Shown here piece after piece: positions 8,167-33,541 of a stretch of 38,696 bases of DNA. Both the position numbers and the translations under genes were made by a program. Origin of the DNA: Candidatus Latescibacterota bacterium (GTDB lineage Bacteria; Hydrothermota; Tepidihabitantia; Tepidihabitantales; CAIPLT01); contig JAGXRL010000103.1 in the NCBI GenBank assembly GCA_018335915.1, forward strand, positions 1-38,696, written 5' to 3'. How positions within the stretch are numbered: the first letter of the stretch is position 1; every line of letters starts with the position of its first letter. The notes beneath the pieces were generated by a model. That model was not told where the DNA came from and did not search any database. It saw only the letters and a program-made list of their open reading frames with translations.

Positions 8167-8856
8167 ATGTTGGATAATATGGCTACGAAAAATGATGCGG
8201 GACTGGTTGCACAAGAGCAGTTTGAAATAGAAGTATTAGAGCAGCTCAATCGTAAGCGATTCCTTGATAAAATCATTTTTGGCGGAGGTACTATGCTGAG
8301 ATTATGTTATGGATTGCACCGGTTCTCCGTAGATTTGGATTTCTGGATTGTAAAAAAGACTGACGCTCAAAAACTCTATCGCGATATAAAAAATTATCTC
8401 GGGCAGATTTACACTGTTACAGATGCACAAAACAAATATTACACGATACTTTTTGAAATAAAATCAAAGAACTATCCGCGCCGGTTGAAAATTGAAATCC
8501 GTAAGGAAAAGAAAGATATTATAAGTGAAAAAGCAATTGCGTACAGTGCATATTCGAATACGCAGGTTTTATTAAATACGGTTTCATTAAACGATATGAT
8601 GATATCAAAAATTCAGGCATTTACTGAACGCAAGGAGATACGGGATATTTTTGATATTGAATTTCTCTACAAAAAAGGCGTAAAACTGCCTGACGATAAG
8701 CCCGCTTTGAATCAGCTGTTATCAATCATTAATAAGCTGACTAAAAAAGATTATACTGTAAAACTTGGGTCAATCGTGTCAGCCGACCAGAGAAAATACT
8801 ATACTCAAGAAAACTTCAAAATCATTAAACTGGCAATTAAAGAAAAACTTACCTGA
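8167..8856 (+). CDS. abiEii: Type IV TA system toxin, AbiEii/AbiGii nucleotidyltransferase
   Basis: FGGGTMLRLCYGLHRFSVDLDFW (GG.T.LR...R.S.DLDF nucleotidyltransferase motif), LNDMMISKIQAFTERKEIRDIFDIEFL. Confidence 0.88.
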   Translation: MLDNMATKNDAGLVAQEQFEIEVLEQLNRKRFLDKIIFGGGTMLRLCYGLHRFSVDLDFWIVKKTDAQKLYRDIKNYLGQIYTVTDAQNKYYTILFEIKSKNYPRRLKIEIRKEKKDIISEKAIAYSAYSNTQVLLNTVSLNDMMISKIQAFTERKEIRDIFDIEFLYKKGVKLPDDKPALNQLLSIINKLTKKDYTVKLGSIVSADQRKYYTQENFKIIKLAIKEKLT

Positions 8857-20994: not shown

Positions 20995-21594
20995 TTATGA
21001 ATAGCGTTGTTCGCGCCAGGGGTCACCATGATTGTGATATCCGCGTGATTCCCAAAAACCCGCTACATCTTTAGCTAAAAACTGAACGCCATTGACCCAT
21101 TTCGCGCTTTTCCAGAAATATAATCTCGGTACAACAAGACGGACCGGATGACCATGCTCAGGTGTGATATCTTGACCATTTAATTTAACAGCAAATAAGA
21201 CATCATCAGCGAAAAAATCATCACATGCTAAATTAGTATAGTAGTCATCACTACAATATATCATCACAAATTTTGCTTCAGGTTTTATTCTGACCAGATT
21301 TTTGATTTCTTTGCTTGAGATGCCCTGCCAGGTGTTATTCAGTTTGGACCAGCCGGTTACACAGTGAATGTCAGAAAATACTTTAACTTGTGGTAATGAG
21401 ATGAATTCATTATAGGGCAATCTCTTTTCTTTCTCAACTTGACCCCAGATACGAAATACCCATTTATCTCTATTAAATTCGTGAATACTATTAAAATGTA
21501 AAACCGGGAAATTATCAGTCAGTCTTTGACCATTAGGAACACGGTTCTTTTTTTGAGTATCTGGACTGATAATTGTATAATTCTTCTCAGACAT
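20995..21594 (-). CDS. Molybdopterin-dependent sulfite-oxidase-fold oxidoreductase, short cytoplasmic form
   Basis: WVFRIWGQVEKEKRLPYNEFISLPQVKVFSDIHCVTGWSKLNNTWQGI (Mo-ligand Cys region) and GHPVRLVVPRLYFWKSAKWVNGVQFL; no signal peptide evident. Confidence 0.85.
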   Translation of the reverse strand: MSEKNYTIISPDTQKKNRVPNGQRLTDNFPVLHFNSIHEFNRDKWVFRIWGQVEKEKRLPYNEFISLPQVKVFSDIHCVTGWSKLNNTWQGISSKEIKNLVRIKPEAKFVMIYCSDDYYTNLACDDFFADDVLFAVKLNGQDITPEHGHPVRLVVPRLYFWKSAKWVNGVQFLAKDVAGFWESRGYHNHGDPWREQRYS

Positions 21595-21636: not shown

Positions 21637-22254
21637 CTAATAACCCCAGATTTCGTTAAGATATGCTTTACGACGGCAATCAACGCAGAGAATACGCTGG
21701 TGCTGAGAACGGTAAGGAAGTTCAGCAGTATCAGTTTTAGTATCGGTTCCAGTCTTTATGGTATCCAACTCAGCATGCAGGGTTAAATACAGGGTCGGAT
21801 TAGCGTATGCGAGTTCACCAAGTTTGTGAGCAATCCAGAGCAACTGTGCTTTTGGGGCAACTACCACACCACACATTTCGCAGAAGACCAGTTCTTTTTC
21901 AATGATATTTTCAAAGTCTTTGTTTTCGAGTTTGGCTAAATCGTATTCCTGCGTATGTTTGATGCCTTGCTGAGTTGTGCAGTAAGTCACGCATTGTCCG
22001 CAGTAGATGCATTTTTCCTGATAATGGATTACCTTGCGGACTTTTCTTTTAATATCGTCTTCAATTGCCCGAGCATTAGCAGGACAGACTTCAACACAGG
22101 CACCGCAACCGATACATCGTTCAACATCGTATTTAATAATACCACGAAAATTCGGTGCTGGTACAGACGGTTTTTTAGGAAATTTTGTAGTATACGGACC
22201 TTTGATTAAAGCTCGGATTGCTTCACCGAGTTCACGCAATTTAGGCTTTTTCAT
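21637..22254 (-). CDS. 4Fe-4S ferredoxin subunit of membrane-bound hydrogenase (MbhN/NuoI-like)
   Basis: CIGCGACVEVCPANA and CIYCGQCVTYCTTQ clusters plus C-terminal CEMCG...CVDCRRKAY cysteines. Start at 22254 supported by GGAGG; the track start 22281 overlaps the upstream gene more. Confidence 0.85.
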   Translation of the reverse strand: MKKPKLRELGEAIRALIKGPYTTKFPKKPSVPAPNFRGIIKYDVERCIGCGACVEVCPANARAIEDDIKRKVRKVIHYQEKCIYCGQCVTYCTTQQGIKHTQEYDLAKLENKDFENIIEKELVFCEMCGVVVAPKAQLLWIAHKLGELAYANPTLYLTLHAELDTIKTGTDTKTDTAELPYRSQHQRILCVDCRRKAYLNEIWGY

Positions 22255-22621
22255 CAGTAGCCTCCGAATCAGGTTTTTCAATTAATTCTTTGCCGACTTT
22301 GTCCGGTCCGAATTTATCGAGTTCGGTCTTGTGCCACATCTTGATACCAAAGAATAATGAACCGCGCGATAAGACATGGGCAGCAACCGGCATGGTTAAG
22401 AGAATGAACAGGGCACAGACCAATGCTTTGATACCCATAACACTAAATCCTTTTAACAAGAAGATGCCGAACATTAAACCACAGGCACCGAGCGTAACCC
22501 CTTTGGTTGCGGCTTGCATGCGATTGTACAAGTCAGGAAACCGAACCAAGCCAAGACAGCCGAGCAGAGCAAAACAGACACCAATGACAATAAAAATCCA
22601 GCCCAAGAGATTAATCATCAA
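22241..22621 (-). CDS. mnhG: Monovalent cation/H+ antiporter subunit G (MnhG/MrpG-like)
   Basis: GVCFALLGCLGLVRFPDLYNRMQAATKGVTLGACGLM: MnhG signature. Confidence 0.88.
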   Translation of the reverse strand: MMINLLGWIFIVIGVCFALLGCLGLVRFPDLYNRMQAATKGVTLGACGLMFGIFLLKGFSVMGIKALVCALFILLTMPVAAHVLSRGSLFFGIKMWHKTELDKFGPDKVGKELIEKPDSEATDEKA

Positions 22622-22865
22622 GACTCCTGCCTTCTAAATATTTCCCCAGTGCCAAAGTTCCGATAAAACTTAAGATCGCGAGCGTGATTGCCAGATCCAT
22701 TAAGAATGCAATATTATATCGAAGTGCCATTAAAGCGGTGATACAGGTGAAGATAATGCTCATAATATCAACCGATATGACCCGGTCTGAAATGCTCGGT
22801 CCTTGCAGGGCACGATACAGACAGAAGAACGCACCTAATGATAATAGTACAATCAGTATTTCCAT
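22611..22865 (-). CDS. mnhF: Monovalent cation/H+ antiporter subunit F (MnhF/MrpF-like)
   Basis: 84 aa; YRALQGPSISDRVISVDIMSIIFTCITALMAL...FLMDLAITLAILSFIGTLALGKYL. Confidence 0.88.
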   Translation of the reverse strand: MEILIVLLSLGAFFCLYRALQGPSISDRVISVDIMSIIFTCITALMALRYNIAFLMDLAITLAILSFIGTLALGKYLEGRSLDD

Positions 22866-22874
22866 GTTACCTCA

Positions 22875-23363
22875 TTACTCGAATATCTTTAATAAATATT
22901 TTTCAAAGGGTCCGGCAATATCCTTTGTTGCTTTTTCTAAATCTGTATCACGCATCCAAATCCAATGAATATATAAGATGTCGTCATCAATATCGACACT
23001 CATCGTACCCGGAGTCATGGTAATCGAATTGGCAAGCATAGTCCGGCCCAAGTCGGTCTTAAGTCTGGTTTTGATTTTGACAATACCAGGTTTCAAAGGT
23101 CGTTCGGGATGAATAACTCGATAGGCAACATCAAGGTTGGCTTTAAGACAGAGCCAGCCAAAGACCGGAATGTAAATCAAGAACCATAATAACCGGTGCG
23201 GTTGGAGGATTTTAATAGGATGATATGAAAAATATCCGCCGAAAATTATTGTCGCCAGTAATGATAAGACGATACCGATAACTAAAGAGCCCCAATAAAA
23301 TGTCCAGGTCAAAATCAGCCAAAGGCCGAGGCATAAAATCCAATAACTAAGTCTTTGTGACAT
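22875..23363 (-). CDS. mnhE: Na+/H+ antiporter subunit E (MnhE/MrpE-like)
   Basis: TRLKTDLGRTMLANSITMTPGTMSVDIDDDILYIHWI: MnhE signature. Confidence 0.88.
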   Translation of the reverse strand: MSQRLSYWILCLGLWLILTWTFYWGSLVIGIVLSLLATIIFGGYFSYHPIKILQPHRLLWFLIYIPVFGWLCLKANLDVAYRVIHPERPLKPGIVKIKTRLKTDLGRTMLANSITMTPGTMSVDIDDDILYIHWIWMRDTDLEKATKDIAGPFEKYLLKIFE

Positions 23364-23367
23364 ATAT

Positions 23368-23706
23368 TTAACCCTTCAGCTTTCTGATTTCATTGATATC
23401 AAGTGTCTTATACTTTTGATAAATCCGGATGATTAATGATAACATTACCGCAGTGGTACCCAAACCGATAACAATCGCGGTGAGCACTAATGCTTGCGGA
23501 ATCGGGTCAACAAAATTGAGTGGTGAATTGGGGGATGTGATAATCGGTGCCAGAGCATCTTTTTTAAATCCAATAAAAGCAAAGAGGAGATTAACACCAT
23601 ATTCAACCATACAAAAACCGATTGCAATTTTGATTAAGTTCCGCTTCGTGATGATACCGTAGAGACCGATAACAATCAGTAAAATACAGCCGATAAATGG
23701 TATCAT
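23368..23706 (-). CDS. mnhC: Antiporter subunit C / NuoK-like (MnhC)
   Basis: IGLYGIITKRNLIKIAIGFCMVEYGVNLLF...VDPIPQALVLTAIVIGLGTTAVMLSL. Confidence 0.87.
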   Translation of the reverse strand: MIPFIGCILLIVIGLYGIITKRNLIKIAIGFCMVEYGVNLLFAFIGFKKDALAPIITSPNSPLNFVDPIPQALVLTAIVIGLGTTAVMLSLIIRIYQKYKTLDINEIRKLKG

Positions 23707-23708
23707 AA

Positions 23709-24143
23709 TTACTCCTTCATAATATAATGCGATGCGGCTAAAGCAAGAAAGATGCTTAGAAGCCCGGCACCAACTTTCATACCAATCGCAATATTTGCCA
23801 AAGGAATTATTCCCGCACTGAGCAGTTTTAAGGGCGCGCCTTTACTGATTATATTTGTAAAAAAGAATGTGCCAGCAAAGAGACCGAGCAGGGCAAGGAT
23901 GAGAAACATGAGTCCGCCAAGGCTTTCGAAGATAGAAGAAAAGGTGTAGGAACTCTTTTCTTTAATTTCCGCGGCGCCAAAAGAAAGTACTAACAGAATG
24001 AATGAAGCGGCAATAATAACACCACCAGCAAAACCGCCGCCGGGCGTAAGATGACCATGGAGAATGATATAACTACCATAGAGAAAGATAAAACCGGCCA
24101 GGATGCGGGATATGGTTTTTACAATAACACTCATTCCTTTCAT
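23709..24143 (-). CDS. mnhB: Antiporter subunit B (MnhB-like)
   Basis: FIFLYGSYIILHGHLTPGGGFAGGVIIAASFILLVLSFG: MnhB signature. Confidence 0.87.
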   Translation of the reverse strand: MKGMSVIVKTISRILAGFIFLYGSYIILHGHLTPGGGFAGGVIIAASFILLVLSFGAAEIKEKSSYTFSSIFESLGGLMFLILALLGLFAGTFFFTNIISKGAPLKLLSAGIIPLANIAIGMKVGAGLLSIFLALAASHYIMKE

Positions 24144-24670
24144 TTTCGCCCCTTTACTCTTAATATAGTCAAGACACCTAATACAGATGTGAACAGGACA
24201 ACCGCTTCACCAAAGGTATCGTACCCGCGATAATCGAGGATAATTGCCGCAACAATGTTTGTGGCACCGGTCTGATTGAGTCCGTGAACAATATAATGCT
24301 CGGCAACTTTCATTATCGGCATCCCGAATCGGGGCAGATCTTTTAGAGCGTAAATTGCCAGAACTGTGACCAAAGTTCCAAAGATAAAAAATGCGATGAC
24401 CGGAAAAATTCCTTCGCGCTGGATGCCTTTCTGAATTGTCGTATCCGTATGCGTGGTGCGCAGAATAGTTGCGGCAAAGAAAACTACGGTCAGAATTTCA
24501 ACGACAATCTGGACGATCGCCAAGTCTGGAGCCTGCACCAGAATAAACATGATTGCGACGGAAAAACCGACAATACCCATTGAGACCGCTGATGCCAGTA
24601 AATCTTTGATTTCAATGGCAACAATAGCGGCAGCAAGCATCGCAATAACCAATAAATATATTTCAATCAT
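24140..24670 (-). CDS. Fused MbhD (DUF4040)-MbhE-like hydrogenase/antiporter subunit
   Basis: N-terminal DUF4040-like IKDLLASAVSMGIVGFSVAIMFILVQAPDLAIVQIVVEILTVVFF; C-terminal TNIVAAIILDYRGYDTFGEAVVLFTSVLGVLTIL (MbhE/MnhA-C-terminal-like). Confidence 0.82.
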   Translation of the reverse strand: MIEIYLLVIAMLAAAIVAIEIKDLLASAVSMGIVGFSVAIMFILVQAPDLAIVQIVVEILTVVFFAATILRTTHTDTTIQKGIQREGIFPVIAFFIFGTLVTVLAIYALKDLPRFGMPIMKVAEHYIVHGLNQTGATNIVAAIILDYRGYDTFGEAVVLFTSVLGVLTILRVKGRK

Positions 24671-26247
24671 GCAACACTCCTTATCTTATGCCTAAAAAAC
24701 TTAAGGTAATACAGGATGATACCAAGGATTATCGAGCTGATTATTGCAAATGGCAAATAGGAAAGACTGAATGGATTGGTAGGAATGTTGTGTGAAAATG
24801 TTTTTATACTGTTCAGCACCGGGACCAGAATGGTCTGCCATGAGAAAGACCGGACAAAAATACCCAGCACAAACGCGATGAGTATTAATATCGCGGATGA
24901 TGTCCACATAGTAAAGCCAGGATCACGAATCTTTAAAGAATAGTGCGTATCGGTACCGCGGAAACTGCGGATGTATTTCAAAAAGTAAATCGGGGTGACT
25001 ATAATACCAAAGAAAAAGCCGACTATCGATAAGATAGAAGCACTACTAAGAAGACTGGTATTTGACGTTAAAACACCCTGTAATATTAACCATTTGGAAA
25101 AGAATCCGCTTAAAGGAGGTATGCCAACGCTGACTAATATAGCCAACAATAACATAAAAAATGTAATCGGCATTTTTCCACCGAGTCCACCGAAATTTTC
25201 TAAGAGCGTGGTTTTAGTCCAGTATTCGAACGACCCAGCTGTGAACAAGAGAGTTGGCTGGAAAGTGAGATAATTAAGCAGGTGAAAAATACTACCAGCC
25301 AGAGCAAGTGGGTTGACCCAGCCAAGGCCAAGCAGAATAAAACCGAGCTGCACCATTGCATTTTGATTTAAAAACTGATAAATACCTTTACTACGCAAAG
25401 CTAAAATTCCCGCAATAATAATGTTAATCACACCAATACCGATGATGAGCAGGCGGATCGAGTGGGATTGATTTAGATTAAAGATATATTGTGTGATGCG
25501 AATCAGCATATAAGCACCAGTAATTTTTTCAATTACAGACGGTATTAAAATAAAAACTGATGCCGGTGATTTTTGGGCGATTTGGTTAGTCCACTGATGG
25601 AAGGGGATAAGTCCAATTTTACCAAGCAGACCGACCAATAAAAGCAGAAATGCGATATTTATTGTCGGTGTTGATAAAATAATGCGCGGGTCAGATATGA
25701 CAGTTAGATTAAGAGTATTATGAAAAAGCAGGATTGCGCCGGCAAGGAAAAAAATATTATATAAAATTACTGACAAAAGAATCTGGTAGATAAAAGCACG
25801 CGGACTTTCGGCAGTTGCGATTAAAAGCGCACAGAGAATCAGCGTTAAGAAGATTGATAAGATACCGAAAAACAACAGATTATTCGCAAGCACCATCGCA
25901 TTTGCAATCCCAGCTGTCAAAGACAGATAAAGGTAATAGCTGTTTAAGTTTTTCAAGCTTCGGGCAGAACGGAATGAATAGACGAGGACGATAAAACAGG
26001 TTATCGCAATCGCAATTATGATGATACTGCCGAATCGGTCTAAAGTAAAACCAAATTTGAAATTATTTATTGCGATGATATCTTTACTGAGAATATTTAA
26101 TCGTCTGACATTAATGAATAAGAGAAAGGCATAGTATAAATTTATAGCCGCACCCAAAAAATTGAATTCATTGCGCAGTTTGGAAATGAGATAACCGAAA
26201 ATACCAGTGATAACCGGCGCGACGGTGATTATAAGTAAAGGTGTCAT
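24667..26247 (-). CDS. Proton/cation-translocating membrane subunit (MnhD/NuoN/MbhH-like)
   Basis: 526 aa, about 14 TM; LLLLVGLLGKIGLIPFHQWTNQIAQKSPASVFILIPSVIEKITGAYMLIRI: proton_antipo_M family. Confidence 0.9.
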   Translation of the reverse strand: MTPLLIITVAPVITGIFGYLISKLRNEFNFLGAAINLYYAFLLFINVRRLNILSKDIIAINNFKFGFTLDRFGSIIIIAIAITCFIVLVYSFRSARSLKNLNSYYLYLSLTAGIANAMVLANNLLFFGILSIFLTLILCALLIATAESPRAFIYQILLSVILYNIFFLAGAILLFHNTLNLTVISDPRIILSTPTINIAFLLLLVGLLGKIGLIPFHQWTNQIAQKSPASVFILIPSVIEKITGAYMLIRITQYIFNLNQSHSIRLLIIGIGVINIIIAGILALRSKGIYQFLNQNAMVQLGFILLGLGWVNPLALAGSIFHLLNYLTFQPTLLFTAGSFEYWTKTTLLENFGGLGGKMPITFFMLLLAILVSVGIPPLSGFFSKWLILQGVLTSNTSLLSSASILSIVGFFFGIIVTPIYFLKYIRSFRGTDTHYSLKIRDPGFTMWTSSAILILIAFVLGIFVRSFSWQTILVPVLNSIKTFSHNIPTNPFSLSYLPFAIISSIILGIILYYLKFFRHKIRSVA

Positions 26248-27428
26248 TTTCGATATTTTGACTTTAATATTTCAGTTTTTTGCCAGGATAGTTCTAAGAG
26301 CTGTTTCCCATTATATATTTCTTTACCATCTTCGAATGCAGCCATTCTTTCGGTGCAACAATAACATGGGTCAATGGCAGCCAAACATAAGGCGGCATCA
26401 GCAATTGAATATCCTTTGACTGCATATTCATTGGAGGGAAGATTCATAAAACTGGGCGCCCGGACTTTATGCCGGATTGGTTTGTTGGTACCATCACTAC
26501 GCACATAATGAAAAACTTCACCTCGCGGTGCTTCTGTTCGTCCACAACCTTCACCAGGCGGGATATCATCAACCCGCGCTTGAATCGGTCCCTCAGGTAA
26601 TTGTTTTATGCATTGCCGTATAATCTTGATTGATTCAAAACATTCAAGTAAGCGGACTTTGGCTTTGGCAAAAATATCGCCTTCTTCAAGCACAATCATA
26701 TTCCAATCAATTTTGTCATAAGCACAGTGTGGGTCGTCTTTTCTGACATCGATTGCATAGCCAGAAGCACGGGCAGTAGGACCAAGCACGCCATATGAGA
26801 TTGCTTTTTCTTTGGGCAGGATACCGACATTTTCAAGTCGGGCGTGCAGGACTGGGTCATCTAAAACCGCATGTGTTAACATTGAAATTTTCTGCTCAGC
26901 TAAATTCAGGACTTTTTCAATTTCAGGGAACTGACCCGGATTAATATCTCGCCGGACCCCGCCAATTTTATTCATCGCATAATGGTTACGGTTACCAGTA
27001 ATTATTTCAAATAAATCCAAAATCGGTTCCCGGTAACGCCAAGCCCACATCCAGACCGTATTATATCCGATAAAATGACCAGCCAGACCAAGCCATAATA
27101 AATGGGAATGGACTCGTTCCAGCTCGTGAACAACAGAACGAAGATATTGTGCTCGTTCCGGCACTTCGATGTGAGCTGCGTCTTCAACTGCTAATACAAA
27201 AGCCAAAGGATGAGAATTGGAACAGATACCGCAGATTCGTTCAACCAGAAATGGCACCTGGTCATAGGTCAAACTCGGTGAGATGAATTCATGACCGCGA
27301 TGATTATAACCAATATTAATTTCGATATCAACAACTTTTTCACCTTCGACAATGAGTTTAAAAAATTCGGGTTCTTCCTGCAGGGGGTGAAACGGTCCAA
27401 TCGGAACAATTCTTCGATTATTGCTCAT
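26244..27428 (-). CDS. Group 4 [NiFe] hydrogenase large subunit (MbhL/EchE-like)
   Basis: Both Ni-binding motifs intact: N-terminal ERICGICSNSHPLAF and C-terminal IDPCYCCTERM. Confidence 0.93.
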   Translation of the reverse strand: MSNNRRIVPIGPFHPLQEEPEFFKLIVEGEKVVDIEINIGYNHRGHEFISPSLTYDQVPFLVERICGICSNSHPLAFVLAVEDAAHIEVPERAQYLRSVVHELERVHSHLLWLGLAGHFIGYNTVWMWAWRYREPILDLFEIITGNRNHYAMNKIGGVRRDINPGQFPEIEKVLNLAEQKISMLTHAVLDDPVLHARLENVGILPKEKAISYGVLGPTARASGYAIDVRKDDPHCAYDKIDWNMIVLEEGDIFAKAKVRLLECFESIKIIRQCIKQLPEGPIQARVDDIPPGEGCGRTEAPRGEVFHYVRSDGTNKPIRHKVRAPSFMNLPSNEYAVKGYSIADAALCLAAIDPCYCCTERMAAFEDGKEIYNGKQLLELSWQKTEILKSKYRK

Positions 27429-27858
27429 AATCCCGCCTTAATGGATGTTTATCTTCGGGCCAATCATCAGAGGTTAATAATGGCTTCATATTCGGATGTC
27501 CTTCAAAATTAATGCCTAAGAGCTCATGAATTTCCCGTTCAATCCAGTTGGCTGATTCAAATATCGGTGCTAATGACTGAATAGTCGGATTATCTTTAGG
27601 AATTAACACTTTAACGTTAAAGAGAGTTCCTGCCGAATCTAAGGAAAAATGATAGATGATTTCAAATCCTTCCCGGGTATCAATACCGGTTGCGATCGCA
27701 AGACGCAGACCTTTTTCTTGATAGAGAAACTTAGTCATATTCCCGATTTTTTCTTTGGGAATCGTAATATAGTATCTTCGCTCATTATGCTCAAATATCT
27801 TTGCGTCAGGAAATTTCTTTTTTAACTCAGTTTGAATTTGACTTATTAATTGGTTCAT
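27418..27858 (-). CDS. NuoC/MbhK-like 30-kDa subunit
   Basis: IQSLAPIFESANWIEREIHELLGINFEGHPNMKPLLTSDDWPEDKHPLRRDY: complex I 30-kDa signature. Confidence 0.92.
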   Translation of the reverse strand: MNQLISQIQTELKKKFPDAKIFEHNERRYYITIPKEKIGNMTKFLYQEKGLRLAIATGIDTREGFEIIYHFSLDSAGTLFNVKVLIPKDNPTIQSLAPIFESANWIEREIHELLGINFEGHPNMKPLLTSDDWPEDKHPLRRDYEQ

Positions 27859-28271
27859 AATTTTGATAATGCCTTAACAATCCCTAAAATCATTGCCTCT
27901 GGTTTAGGCGGACAACCTGGAATAAAAACGTCTACCGGCAGATGTTTTCCATAAGGACCGACTACATTATAAGAGTTCTTAAAAATATGGATATCGCAGG
28001 TACAGGAACCGATACCAATTACCAAACAAGGTTTTGGGGTCTGTTCATAGACTCGTAAGACCCGGGGCAGAGATTTTCGGTTAAGCACACCGGTCACAAG
28101 CAAAGCATCAGCATGACGAGGCGAACCAACTAAAACAATACCAAATCTTTCAACATCAAAGCGCGGTGTGATTAAATCTAAAATTTCAATATCACAGTTA
28201 TTACAGGAAGCAGCAGCAACATGGAACACCCAGGGAGATTTTTTCAATCCTTGTATTCTAAGGTCTTTCAT
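27855..28271 (-). CDS. NuoB/MbhJ-like hydrogenase small subunit
   Basis: ASCNNCDIEILDLITPRFDVERFGIVLVGSPRHADALLVTG...GIGSCTCD...VDVFIPGCPPKPEAM; ATG at 28271 is a better start than 28301. Confidence 0.92.
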   Translation of the reverse strand: MKDLRIQGLKKSPWVFHVAAASCNNCDIEILDLITPRFDVERFGIVLVGSPRHADALLVTGVLNRKSLPRVLRVYEQTPKPCLVIGIGSCTCDIHIFKNSYNVVGPYGKHLPVDVFIPGCPPKPEAMILGIVKALSKL

Positions 28272-28284
28272 AAATATTCTTTTC

Positions 28285-28380
28285 TTAACCACGAATGACA
28301 CGAATTACACGAATAATACGAAATTATGAATTCATTTATAAGAAATTCGTGTGGTTCGTTTATTTGTGATATTCGTGTTC
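28285..28380. repeat. 'AACCACGAATGACACGAATTACACG' repeat inside the hydrogenase operon
   Basis: TTAACCACGAATGACACGAATTACACGAATAATACG ... GAAATTCGTGTGGTTCGTTTATTTGTGATATTCGTG (inverted arms). Confidence 0.75.
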
Positions 28381-28393
28381 TCTTCATAAATAA

Positions 28394-29305
28394 TTACAAA
28401 TTATAAAATGCTAAAATTATACCAACAATTGCAAATGGTACTAATCCAATCCAGAAGAATTTTAATGCCTGGTCAATGCGTAATCTCGGGTTAGTATTTT
28501 TTAAGAGTATAACCAGAACGACTAATAAGAGTAGTTTGGGAATTGCCCACCGGCTGGCGAGTCCGCCCCAAAAGATTGTGATTAAAAAGCAGGGTAAGAT
28601 AAAAAACATCATTGCTTTGGTTAATTTAAACATGGCTAAAGCTACACCTGAATATTCAAGCAATGGTCCGGCCATAATTTCCTGTTCTGCTTCAGCAATG
28701 TCAAACGGCACATATCCGAGTTTTGCCTGCATCGCAAATAAAGAAATGAGCATCGCAATAACACCAGAAAAAGAATAGAGAATCGGTCCGTACAACTGCT
28801 GAAACGCAACCATCTCACCGATTCTTATCTGACCGCCGGTTTTAATCACCGCAATCAGAATCGCGGCTAAGAACGGCAGCTCATAAGCAAAATATAAAGT
28901 CATTTCCCGTGACGCACCAACCGCGCTTAACGGATTTTTTGATGCCGAACCGCCAAGAATCAGGCCGAGCGGTGGCAGCGCTAAGAGATAAATCAAGACA
29001 ATCAAATCACCAACAAAGGATTTATCAGGCATAAAGTTCATGGCAAAGAGCATAACTGCAATAATAGTCATCGCAATGACACCCAGCATTGGCGCTAACA
29101 AGAAAATAAATTTAGGTGTGCCGGCTGGAATCATGGTTTCTTTAGCGAGCAGTTTAAAGAAATCAGCAAACGGCTGGTACCAGGGCGGTCCGATCCGCCA
29201 GTGAATACGGGCAGTTACTTTTCGGTCAACCCAGGTTAAGAGCATACCGACAATCGCAGTAAAAAGAAAGCCCGGAAATACCAAGAACCAGAAAGCTATT
29301 TTCAT
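28394..29305 (-). CDS. NuoH/MbhM-like membrane anchor subunit
   Basis: LLTWVDRKVTARIHWRIGPPWYQPFADFFKLLAKE; ASREMTLYFAYELPFLAAIL; PFDIAEAEQEIMAGPLLEYSG. Confidence 0.93.
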   Translation of the reverse strand: MKIAFWFLVFPGFLFTAIVGMLLTWVDRKVTARIHWRIGPPWYQPFADFFKLLAKETMIPAGTPKFIFLLAPMLGVIAMTIIAVMLFAMNFMPDKSFVGDLIVLIYLLALPPLGLILGGSASKNPLSAVGASREMTLYFAYELPFLAAILIAVIKTGGQIRIGEMVAFQQLYGPILYSFSGVIAMLISLFAMQAKLGYVPFDIAEAEQEIMAGPLLEYSGVALAMFKLTKAMMFFILPCFLITIFWGGLASRWAIPKLLLLVVLVILLKNTNPRLRIDQALKFFWIGLVPFAIVGIILAFYNL

Positions 29306-29420: not shown

Positions 29421-29900
29421 TCATGTGCGCCTCCAGAATGGAGAACGGGAAATGAACCGTTTACTGATAATTGTCTTTTTAGCCTCGGCTTCAGTCATGT
29501 ATTTTAAGGCACCAGACGTACAGCTTGCCACGCAACGCGGTCCGGCTTCGCGGTCATGACATAAACTACATTTCTGAGAAACATGATTAAAAAGACTCTG
29601 GTCTAAAACTCCGAACGGGCAGGCCAAAATACATGATTTGCAGCCGACGCAGTGAAAACTCGCCTGCAAGACCAGACCATTTTCAGTTTCTTTTAAGACT
29701 TCAAACGGGCAGGCACGGGCGCACAAAGGTTCTTCGCAATGACGGCAGGCAATCGGCAGATATACGGTTGCTGAGACCTCGCCATAACGGATTCTTGCTT
29801 CATTAAAGGTACTGCGGCAGGCTGCTTCACAAGAGCGGCATCCAATACAATAATCTAAATCAAGATAAATTCTTTTTTCGTTATTTGGCATTACTTTCAT
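29421..29900 (-). CDS. HycB/HydN-like polyferredoxin (four 4Fe-4S motifs)
   Basis: CIGCRSCEAAC, CRHCEEPLCARACPFEV, CVGCKSCILACPFGVL, CSLCHDREAGPRCVASC. Confidence 0.9.
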   Translation of the reverse strand: MKVMPNNEKRIYLDLDYCIGCRSCEAACRSTFNEARIRYGEVSATVYLPIACRHCEEPLCARACPFEVLKETENGLVLQASFHCVGCKSCILACPFGVLDQSLFNHVSQKCSLCHDREAGPRCVASCTSGALKYMTEAEAKKTIISKRFISRSPFWRRT

Positions 29901-29973: not shown

Positions 29974-31689
29974 TTATTCACCCGTTCCGACCTTTTTTAT
30001 TATGCCGCTGGCAGTGCTGACAAGGATTTCTTTGGTTAAATCATCAGTCTGGATTGGAAAGAGTTCGCGATTATCGGGTGTAGTTACCGAAACAGCGGCA
30101 GTGTGATTAGGCAGAGAAGGCGTAATTTTTGCAATATAAGTTTTTTCTTTGCCGTTAATACTTAATATTACTTTATCATCTGGTTTGATGTTGAGGTGTT
30201 CAGCATTAAGCGGATTTATTTTAATTGTCTCGGCATCGTTTTCAAACAAACCGCGGTATGCGAATGGTGTTTCTTCGCCGATAACGGTAAAGTCCGGATT
30301 GTCCTTATAATTTTCGACAAAACTGATTAACCGGTTAATTACATCGTCAATATTTAAATTACTATTAAAATTTAATCTCGGTTTAGTTTTGGTACTGCTG
30401 TACGGAACGATTGAGTCGAGTATTTCGGGAATCGGTTTTGTGCCGTTAAGCGCAGGCGCTACTGGTTTGAGGTTTTGCCGGGACCATAAGGTATTAATTG
30501 TGCCTGATTTTTCCAAAAGTGACGGCACGGCTAAAGTGTAATTTCTGGTTATTCCACTTATCTGGCTTATGTGCGGATTGCGAAAAGTATCAGCGTGAAT
30601 AAACATATCTAATTTATTTAAGTAAGGAAAGACTTGCGGATAATAATATGGAAAATCTTCGCCAAAATTGATTAAAGCTTTGATTTTTTCCTGATCGAGC
30701 ATTTCCAGAACAGAACCAAAACCGACTTTTCCAAAAGGCACCATTGATAAAGCCGGTGCCAGAAACTTTTTACCCGGGATAAGAACAGCTATTAATTGTG
30801 CTAATAACGACAGTAATAGCGGGTCTTTGGTTTTACCAAAATCGATTGCGCACAAGATAACGCTATGCTCATTGGCAGTAATTGACTGGCAAATCTCCTG
30901 GATATCTTTTTCCAAGACGCCGCATATTTCCAATAATCGGGAAGATAGTTTTTTCAGACTGTTAAAATTCCTGTCTCCAAGCATGTCTTTGGCCGGTTTA
31001 CCCATCGCAAGAATCAATGCTGCTAATACTATCGGTTCAGTATTCGGTTTTGTCCAGATAAATTTATTGGCAAACCCAGCCAGTTTGGTATTGACTGAAT
31101 CAATATAAAACAGGCGGTGACTGCGGTCTGCATATTTGGCATCTAAGATTGGTTTGGCAATCACTGGTGACTTGCTGAAAACATCGCCGATTATCAGAAT
31201 CTGCCTGGCATTAGCAATATCTTTCAAATCAGCATTCTCGATGTTGCTGATGCCATAACTCAAAAATGACTCGGGATGCAGATAGGTGCGCGCAATTTTA
31301 TCGACTTTTAATTCCTGAGCAAAGCTAAAAATCGCAGTCAATTCTTCAATCGTGTTATTCGTATCATAGGTAACAGCGATTTCACTGGCGGGAATCGATT
31401 TGAGATGTGAACTAATCTGTTTGAGCGCATCGTTCCAGATAACGTTCTTGTTGTTGAATAGGGGGTAAGCAAGACGCCTTTTATGATTTAAGACGGTCGG
31501 CGCTAAATTGCCCCGGGCGCATAATCTGCCTTGATTAATATCAGATTTGGCATCATATTCATTCTTGTACAGAATAAAATCACCGCGATTAATCTCGTTG
31601 ATTGCCAGTTCACAGCCATACAAGCAGAACGGACAGACAGATTTTTTTATTTCGGATTTCGAATTTAGTGCTTCGGATTTATGCTTCAT
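29974..31689 (-). CDS. Molybdopterin-oxidoreductase-fold iron-sulfur protein (FdhA/NuoG-like), probably without Mo-ligand Cys/Sec
   Basis: N-terminal CPFCLYGCEL...GRLCARGNLAP 4Fe-4S motif, bis-MGD-type domains, C-terminal INPLNAEHLNIKPDDKVILS molydopterin-binding-like domain; residues at the expected catalytic site read ARTYLHPESF. Confidence 0.8.
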   Translation of the reverse strand: MKHKSEALNSKSEIKKSVCPFCLYGCELAINEINRGDFILYKNEYDAKSDINQGRLCARGNLAPTVLNHKRRLAYPLFNNKNVIWNDALKQISSHLKSIPASEIAVTYDTNNTIEELTAIFSFAQELKVDKIARTYLHPESFLSYGISNIENADLKDIANARQILIIGDVFSKSPVIAKPILDAKYADRSHRLFYIDSVNTKLAGFANKFIWTKPNTEPIVLAALILAMGKPAKDMLGDRNFNSLKKLSSRLLEICGVLEKDIQEICQSITANEHSVILCAIDFGKTKDPLLLSLLAQLIAVLIPGKKFLAPALSMVPFGKVGFGSVLEMLDQEKIKALINFGEDFPYYYPQVFPYLNKLDMFIHADTFRNPHISQISGITRNYTLAVPSLLEKSGTINTLWSRQNLKPVAPALNGTKPIPEILDSIVPYSSTKTKPRLNFNSNLNIDDVINRLISFVENYKDNPDFTVIGEETPFAYRGLFENDAETIKINPLNAEHLNIKPDDKVILSINGKEKTYIAKITPSLPNHTAAVSVTTPDNRELFPIQTDDLTKEILVSTASGIIKKVGTGE

Positions 31690-32504
31690 CAGAATGGGTC
31701 CTCAATATCTTTCACCTGGTCCCAGGTCAAGACCGGACCGTCTTGACAGACAAAATATTTTCCGCACCGGCAATGACCGCACTGGCCAATACCGCAGGAC
31801 ATATTCTTTTCCATTGATAAATAAATATTCTTGCCGTCAAACCCTTTTTCCAGTAATTTTAAAGTACCAAATTTCATCATAATCGGTGGTCCGCACACGA
31901 CCGCAACAATATCTTGAGTATTTTGCAGCGAATCATCTAATAAAACCGTGACGACGCCGGTTTTTCCTTTCCAGGTTTTATCACCAACATCCACTGATAA
32001 GTCAATATCAACACCTTTCCATGTTTTCCATTCAGGCAAGAGATATTTATAGACAATGTCGGCTGGTGTGCGGGCACCATATTTGATATAAATCTTACCA
32101 TACTTTTTAATATTTTCTGCCAGAGCAAGAAATAACGAGCGTAATGGCGCTAAACCGACACCGCCGCCGAGAATCAATACTTCCCGCTTTTCAAATTCTT
32201 CAATCGGATAACGCTTGCCAAACGGTCCGCGCACAGCGAGAGAGTCACCAGGTTTCATTTCAAATAGAGCCGAAGTAGCCCGTCCGACTTTCATAATCGT
32301 CATTTCCAGAGTATCTTTCACAAACGGTGAAGATGAAGGCGTAAACGGTGCTTCGCCAACCCCGGGTATGGTCAGTTGAATAAACTGACCGGCATCAAAA
32401 GAGAACTTATTGCCCTGCAAGTCGAGCACAAATGTCTTGATTGTCGGTGTTTCATCAATGATTTTAGTGATTGTGACCGGGAAGGGCTGGAATGGGTTTT
32501 TCAT
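31689..32504 (-). CDS. FAD/NAD(P)-binding 2Fe-2S oxidoreductase (sulfhydrogenase gamma/HydG-like)
   Basis: FDAGQFIQLTIPGVGEAPFTPSSSP, VLILGGGVGLAPLRSL, VCGPPIMMK, SMEKNMSCGIGQCGHCRCGKYFVCQDGPV. Confidence 0.92.
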   Translation of the reverse strand: MKNPFQPFPVTITKIIDETPTIKTFVLDLQGNKFSFDAGQFIQLTIPGVGEAPFTPSSSPFVKDTLEMTIMKVGRATSALFEMKPGDSLAVRGPFGKRYPIEEFEKREVLILGGGVGLAPLRSLFLALAENIKKYGKIYIKYGARTPADIVYKYLLPEWKTWKGVDIDLSVDVGDKTWKGKTGVVTVLLDDSLQNTQDIVAVVCGPPIMMKFGTLKLLEKGFDGKNIYLSMEKNMSCGIGQCGHCRCGKYFVCQDGPVLTWDQVKDIEDPF

Positions 32505-33541
32505 ACTTTTTCCAGTACTTTTCTGATATCAATCTTACCCATACAGACTGAATAACATCGTCCGCAGCCAGAACAGGCGTAAAAATCATACTTGTTCTTA
32601 AAATGCATAAACTTGCAGTGAAAACGGTTTCTAAATCGTTTCCAGAATTCAGCCCGGTCCTGCATACCGCCGCCAACCCGTGCATAAGCCGCATAATAAC
32701 AGGCATCCCAGATTTTGTGCCGTTCAAATGATTCTTTATGAGTCGGGGTATCATATAACAGGAAACAAAAACAAGTCGGGCAGACCATGAGACAGCCAAA
32801 ACACTCGACACACTTATCAGCATGCTCCTGCCAGAAATTTGCTTCGGTTTTTTCGTCAATTGCTTTGGGTAAATCGTCGCGCAATTTGCTGGGATTAATT
32901 TTTTCCAAACTCTGCATTGCCTGTTTCCGTTTTTCATTTCGTTGACTCAAATCTTCAGATGATGCTTCTTGAAACAGGTGATTATTGTCGCGTAAAAAAT
33001 CTTCGCCTTTTTTAGTAGCGGATTCGAAAATATAACCATTAGGCAAGGTGGTTAAAATTATATCTGCGCCTTTTTCCGGATAGGGTTTTAATCCGACCAG
33101 ATTGCAAAAACAGGTGTCTTTGGGTGCTGGACAATCTGCGGCAATGATTATGGTGCGGTCAAGCTGTGATTTATAAAATGCGTCGCCATACTCATTTTCC
33201 AGATACATCTTCTGATGCACCATCAAGGGCCGCAAATCACAGTTCTTGGCGCCGATAATAACCCGGGGCGATTCGTCCAGTTTAACATTTACTTTTGAAT
33301 CTTTATTTAAACCGCCGACTTTAAGTCTGGGATTAAAGAAAAACCCCTTGAGTGCTTGAGTCGGTCGGATTTCCTGCAAAGCTTTATACATGGAATTGTC
33401 AGTACCACTGAAAAACTCGGGCGTGAGTTTACGGTAATGAATTTTATTTTCCAAAAAATCGGGATAGTAAACTGAGTAGGATTCGTGAATTTTTCTCAAC
33501 CATTGGTTGAACTTATATCTGTTCAAAAACAATATTGACAT
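32501..33541 (-). CDS. 4Fe-4S dicluster protein (sulfhydrogenase beta/HydB-like)
   Basis: VIIGAKNCDLRPL, ADCPAPKDTCFC, CVECFGCLMVCPTCFCF, CSGCGRCYSVCMGKIDI: HydB/anaerobic sulfite reductase A family. Confidence 0.9.
   Translation of the reverse strand: MSILFLNRYKFNQWLRKIHESYSVYYPDFLENKIHYRKLTPEFFSGTDNSMYKALQEIRPTQALKGFFFNPRLKVGGLNKDSKVNVKLDESPRVIIGAKNCDLRPLMVHQKMYLENEYGDAFYKSQLDRTIIIAADCPAPKDTCFCNLVGLKPYPEKGADIILTTLPNGYIFESATKKGEDFLRDNNHLFQEASSEDLSQRNEKRKQAMQSLEKINPSKLRDDLPKAIDEKTEANFWQEHADKCVECFGCLMVCPTCFCFLLYDTPTHKESFERHKIWDACYYAAYARVGGGMQDRAEFWKRFRNRFHCKFMHFKNKYDFYACSGCGRCYSVCMGKIDIRKVLEKV

Follow-up and report, generated by a model that had tools for sequence, protein, structure and literature searches.

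A formate dehydrogenase-type subunit without a molybdenum ligand in a conserved [NiFe]-hydrogenase operon of WOR-3 bacteria

Background

The 38,696-nucleotide stretch of DNA analysed here (the window) encodes a molybdopterin-oxidoreductase-like subunit, MopB, within a hydrogenase operon. This raises the question of whether MopB is a formate dehydrogenase (FDH), and the locus thus a formate hydrogenlyase, or whether the subunit has another role. Relatives were sought in a host clade set of 61 WOR-3/Stahlbacteria genomes and, at the phylum level, in 147 genomes.

The gene and its 4Fe-4S site

MopB occupies positions 29974-31689 on the (-) strand and is described here, based on its open reading frame, Pfam, profile alignment, and a structural model, as a MopB-fold subunit with one 4Fe-4S site and no Mo ligand. 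The frame starts with ATG, encodes 571 aa, and contains neither an internal stop nor a TGA throughout, in agreement with a previous sequence-only reading; selenocysteine encoded by an internal TGA is thus ruled out. The same reading considered the protein short, and this shortness is real, since the open frames of family members span 485-645 aa. It also described the N-terminal CxxCxxxC...C site as intact, which holds: C19-x2-C22-x3-C26-x30-C57 is present, and Molybdop_Fe4S4, the sole Pfam domain found in MopB, scores 30.7 bits (cut-off 22.7). All 4 cysteines are invariant in the MopB alignment (A1, 15 rows).

Loss of the molybdenum site

The comparators for the active site (alignment A3) were Cys-type FDHs, namely 6 longer proteins that come from the same phylum and retain the CAR-x-CH motif, to which the MopB family aligns strongly (E-value 7.4e-38). 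In this profile alignment the Mo-ligand Cys146 of the FDHs corresponds to Tyr136 of MopB, and the adjacent catalytic His147 to Leu137, both within the segment KIARTYLHPESF. The alignment of this short stretch may be off by one residue, and the alternative register puts Leu137 at the ligand position; the window MopB has no Cys or Sec there in either register. The suggestion that Tyr or Leu stands in place of the missing Cys/Sec is thereby borne out, and the profile alignment to FDHs places no conserved Cys at the Mo-ligand position. Among 41 sequences (the window and 40 homologues), Cys does not occur at position 136, which holds Tyr, His, Pro, or Leu; position 137 is Cys in a single sequence (L044, YCEPE). 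Across the family, global-mode profile alignment shows Cys146 replaced by Tyr or His, and His147 by Leu, Val, Ile, or Phe.

The remaining FDH signatures are affected as well. The catalytic Arg loop, PLRGQNNVQGA, is mostly deleted in the MopB family, and the cofactor-site motifs VDPR and TTGR are replaced by IDS and G-E-K/E, respectively. Of 186 columns invariant in FDHs, 28 are retained at ≥80%, including the four 4Fe-4S cysteines, and 158 fall below 80%. As for curated models, the NCBIfam Fdh-alpha model TIGR01591 gives 76.6 bits on MopB vs a cut-off of 666.25. The best solved-structure match in phmmer is an F420-dependent formate dehydrogenase, whose ARL-X-HS segment is paired with ARTYLHP of MopB. 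The loss of the Mo site is therefore family-wide, and MopB is not an FDH according to either its defining residues (ligand, His, and Arg loop) or its curated model score.

The former ligand site typically carries a [YH]-[LIVF]-E-P-[ED] motif. That E138 and P139 are nearly invariant in most of the clade could indicate that the former cofactor cavity was refitted for another ligand, with this motif as its signature. Such a refitting is improbable, however, given that the motif varies in families f5, f7, f8, f9, and f30 and reads YLHPE in the window itself.

Fold, selection, and lineage variation

The AlphaFold model of MopB (pLDDT 83.8) keeps the molybdopterin-oxidoreductase fold of the DMSO reductase type, with TM scores of 0.74-0.75 vs FDH/Nap and 0.65-0.67 vs NuoG. 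MopB is the least conserved of the 8 subunits compared, with a mean identity of 31.9% (81%, 75%, and 66% for NuoB, NuoD, and HydG, respectively). Low conservation of this kind would be expected of a decaying gene without function, an explanation that has next to no chance of being correct and was rejected as contradicted by selection and conservation: dN/dS is 0.1-0.2 in close pairs, i.e., MopB is under purifying selection, and it is present in 58 of the 61 related genomes with matches free of internal stops. At the phylum level the MopB profile matches 110 of 147 genomes, many of the weaker matches being longer proteins of other MopB families.

The cluster site itself is lost in one lineage. 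In f30 the third 4Fe-4S Cys is Asp in 3 loci (L084, L085, and L091) and is also missing in L095, with the operon conserved; the cluster of MopB is thus dispensable.

Cofactor supply and maturation genes

Neither FdhD nor MoaA was found in any of the 61 host-clade genomes, MoeA was not found above cut-off in any of them, and the only MoaC match is a fragment of 33 residues at the end of a contig. HypD, in comparison, occurs in the window's own genome and in 50 of the 61. Four genomes (G007, G008, G010, and G012) have the operon and no HypD match; in G008 and G010 the [NiFe] ligands of the large subunit are intact. Elsewhere in the phylum, G131, G110, G112, G114, and G087 carry MoaC, MoeA, and FdhD; a Cys-ligand FDH was read in G110, G114, and G087, and the MopB-profile match of G131 has an in-frame TGA. 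The absence of Moco genes is not decisive alone, however, because 3 genomes of the same phylum with a Cys-ligand MopB (G083, G089, and G116) also have no MoaC, MoeA, or FdhD matches. The missing genes thus support a Mo-free MopB without proving it.

A separate candidate Mo protein is encoded in the window at 20995-21594 (-). This MsrP/sulfite-oxidase-like protein of 199 aa keeps HCVTGWS with a putative Mo-ligand Cys, in a genome in which MoaA, MoaC, and MoeA were undetected; L054 is the sole other locus with a copy (73% identical) among those searched.

Some members of the DMSO reductase family use a non-Cys ligand or no protein ligand at all, and MopB might accordingly be an active Mo/W enzyme, an FDH or another. 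The intact fold of the model and the MsrP-like protein encoded in the same genome are consistent with this, but the catalytic His and the Arg loop are gone, the cofactor-site motifs are replaced, and the 61 genomes lack MoaA, FdhD, and any MoeA above cut-off, which makes an active enzyme very improbable.

Operon

MopB belongs to a conserved operon of about 16 genes, all on the (-) strand in the window, which comprises HydB-HydG, MopB, a HycB-like protein, NuoHBCD, Mrp/Mbh antiporter subunits, and NuoI. The first gene (32501-33541) encodes a HydB/AsrA-like 4Fe-4S protein, the putative beta subunit of an NAD(P)H module, which is conserved in relatives' loci and has the Pfam domain Fer4_22; its NCBIfam scores for ShyB, HydB, and AsrA (157.5, 143.3, and 108.1 bits, respectively) are all below cut-off. 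The putative gamma subunit (31689-32504) is a HydG/AsrB-like FAD/NAD(P)H and 2Fe-2S protein with Pfam NAD_binding_1, FAD_binding_6, and DHODB_Fe-S_bind, and with 213 bits for hydrogenase gamma and 211.5 bits for AsrB, both below cut-off. MopB is followed by a HycB/CooF-like polyferredoxin (29421-29900) with Pfam Fer4_11 and other domains, in which Cys motifs for four 4Fe-4S clusters were read directly.

The hydrogenase part consists of a NuoH-like membrane subunit (28394-29305; Pfam NADHdh, 220 bits), a [NiFe]-hydrogenase small subunit/NuoB-like protein (27855-28301; Oxidored_q6, CNNC...GSC...PGCPP, with an uncertain GTG start), a NuoC-like subunit (27418-27858; Complex1_30kDa), and a NuoD-like [NiFe]-hydrogenase large subunit (26244-27428) with both CxxC pairs (ERICGIC and DPCYCC). 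It is followed by an antiporter-like membrane subunit of the NuoL/M/N, MrpA/D type (24667-26247; Proton_antipo_M), an MbhD-MbhE fusion (24140-24670; MbhD, MbhE), MnhB/MrpB (23709-24143; MnhB), an MnhC/NuoK-like subunit (23368-23706; Oxidored_q2), and MnhE (22875-23363; MNHE). MrpF (22611-22865; MrpF_PhaF), MrpG (22241-22621; PhaG_MnhG_YufB), and a NuoI-like ferredoxin with two 4Fe-4S clusters (21637-22281; Fer4 set), the last conserved gene, close the window's operon and recur in those relatives whose stretch reaches that far. Elsewhere in the window, at 8167-8856 (+), Pfam finds an AbiEii-like nucleotidyltransferase toxin domain with 79.5 bits.

Within the clade, complete loci have the same gene order, HydB-HydG-MopB-HycB-NuoH-NuoB-NuoC-NuoD, then antiporter, MbhDE, MnhB, MnhC, and MnhE; several of the loci compared end early at contig ends or at the limits of the stretch analysed. 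L037 yielded only HydB, HydG, MopB, and part of HycB. In f33 (G136) HydB-HydG and MopB-HycB-NuoBCD-NuoI share a contig but are several kb apart, and in f34 (G138; L083, L096) HydB-HydG is on another contig, with only MopB, HycB, and NuoB detected together and no large subunit nearby. The large subunits read keep both [NiFe] ligand pairs (in L050 only the second motif was read), and an Mbx-like complex with lost [NiFe] ligands is thus ruled out. Two CxxC pairs, NuoH-like and antiporter-like subunits, and the maturation gene HypD identify the predicted complex as a group 4 [NiFe] hydrogenase.

In other WOR-3 lineages, Cys-ligand FDH-like proteins adjoin HydB and HydG in L079 (3878-5947) and L088 (7451-9508); they may be relatives of the ancestral module, and their genomes have no MoaC, MoeA, or FdhD matches. 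L076 and L086 contain a gene cluster that, judged by eye, resembles an Stn/Nfn transhydrogenase, with NuoE/NuoF-like, NfnA/NfnB-like, and NuoG-like members; the NuoG-like protein (736-775 aa, without a CAR-C motif) gives those genomes a second MopB that has no FDH motif.

Proposed role

Based on these results, MopB appears, with a probability of roughly 0.8, to be a Mo-free descendant of an FDH-type protein that keeps the fold and, in most lineages, one [4Fe-4S] cluster, has no Mo/W-bis-MGD and no catalytic activity, and would sit within a proposed electron path. In this path NAD(P)H would reduce the FAD and 2Fe-2S cluster of HydG, with electrons passing to the 4Fe-4S of HydB, then to that of MopB, and via HycB/NuoI to NuoB and the [NiFe] site, while the membrane arm would translocate ions. 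The position of MopB between HydBG and HycB is suggested by gene order and analogy, and its role by these together with the fold; the physical complex, the order of electron transfer, and the ion coupling are likewise predictions, and the net direction could be either H2 evolution or H2-driven NAD(P)+ reduction. MopB is most likely a scaffold with one Fe-S cluster, built into an NAD(P)H-linked membrane hydrogenase of WOR-3 that is about as large as complex I.

The MopB cluster may lie on the main electron path or be mainly structural, and the invariant 4Fe-4S site hints at a wire. A purely structural MopB, whose fold docks HydBG onto the hydrogenase with the 4Fe-4S cluster off the electron path, would have a precedent in cluster N7 of complex I. 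The fastest evolution among the 8 subunits and the persistence of the operon in f30 after the loss of the third cluster Cys both fit this alternative, but none of the 4 cluster cysteines varies within the window's own clade, and a purely structural role is possible though rather unlikely.

A scaffold of this kind agrees with the sequence-only reading, which proposed a NuoG-like structural or electron-wire subunit and not an FDH; this proposal is favoured by the lost Mo site, a clade without Moco genes and FdhD, and the linkage to HydB-HydG and the hydrogenase. The further warning against annotating the locus as a formate hydrogenlyase also appears justified: the active-site residues are absent from the FdhF-like subunit, and the label is very probably wrong because an FDH-like protein without a metal active site is likely a scaffold in an NAD(P)H-linked hydrogenase. 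The family thus represents an annotation trap, as HMMs label MopB a formate dehydrogenase, yet the active site is lost and Moco genes are undetected in its genomes. F420-type FDHs were reported in 33 subgroup-4 WOR-3 genomes (PMC12542636). Since the best solved-structure match of MopB is an F420-FDH, these calls may partly rest on the MopB family.

Comparison with known systems

In the part of the Saganbacteria report considered here (PMC6349859), a group 4 hydrogenase locus of RX5A with relatives in Zixibacteria and Omnitrophica is called "enigmatic", and its molybdopterin oxidoreductase is matched by FDH HMMs and unclassified by phylogeny. That locus shares hydrogenase and Mrp subunits, asrA, asrB, cooF, and the molybdopterin oxidoreductase with the present one, the likeness resting on the described gene set; that part makes no mention of a lost Mo ligand or of missing Moco genes. 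The gene combination is therefore already known from Saganbacteria, the lost Mo ligand and the undetected Moco genes are added here for WOR-3, and the WOR-3 operon suggests how the enigmatic locus might be classified.

The E. coli formate hydrogenlyase (Hyc/Hyf and FdhF) likewise brings together FdhF-like, HycB-like, and group 4 [NiFe]-hydrogenase subunits. In the present operon, however, the FdhF-like subunit has no active site, and there are also genes for an NAD(P)H module and for Mrp subunits. Mbh/Mbx of Thermococcales share the MbhD/E and Mrp-type membrane subunits and the NuoBCD/H/I-like arm, whereas HydBG, MopB, and HycB are added here. Mbx-type complexes have no [NiFe] ligands, in contrast to the operon described here, which keeps them. 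The Ehr discussion in the same Saganbacteria report offers a comparison on this point (PMC6349859). A literature search returned no usable source on cluster N7 or on NADH-driven group 4 hydrogenases.

An architectural counterpart is NuoG, which likewise has a molybdopterin fold free of Mo together with a 4Fe-4S site and belongs to a Nuo-like complex (TM 0.65-0.67). In contrast to NuoG, MopB has no N-terminal ferredoxin domains (the 4Fe-4S domain begins at residue 15), is partnered by HydBG instead of NuoEF, and is closer in sequence to FDH; the NuoG model TIGR01973 gives 58.9 bits vs a cut-off of 470.05. MopB is thus an analogue of the molybdopterin domain of NuoG and not a NuoG. Tentatively, and at somewhat less than even odds, the [NiFe] hydrogenase of WOR-3 may be an ion-coupled, NAD(P)H-linked complex of about the size of complex I, whose FDH-type subunit gave up Mo in an event separate from that in NuoG and came to fill the corresponding place in the architecture. 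If true, it would be a living parallel to the acquisition of NuoG by complex I, one that makes the origin of NuoG accessible to testing.
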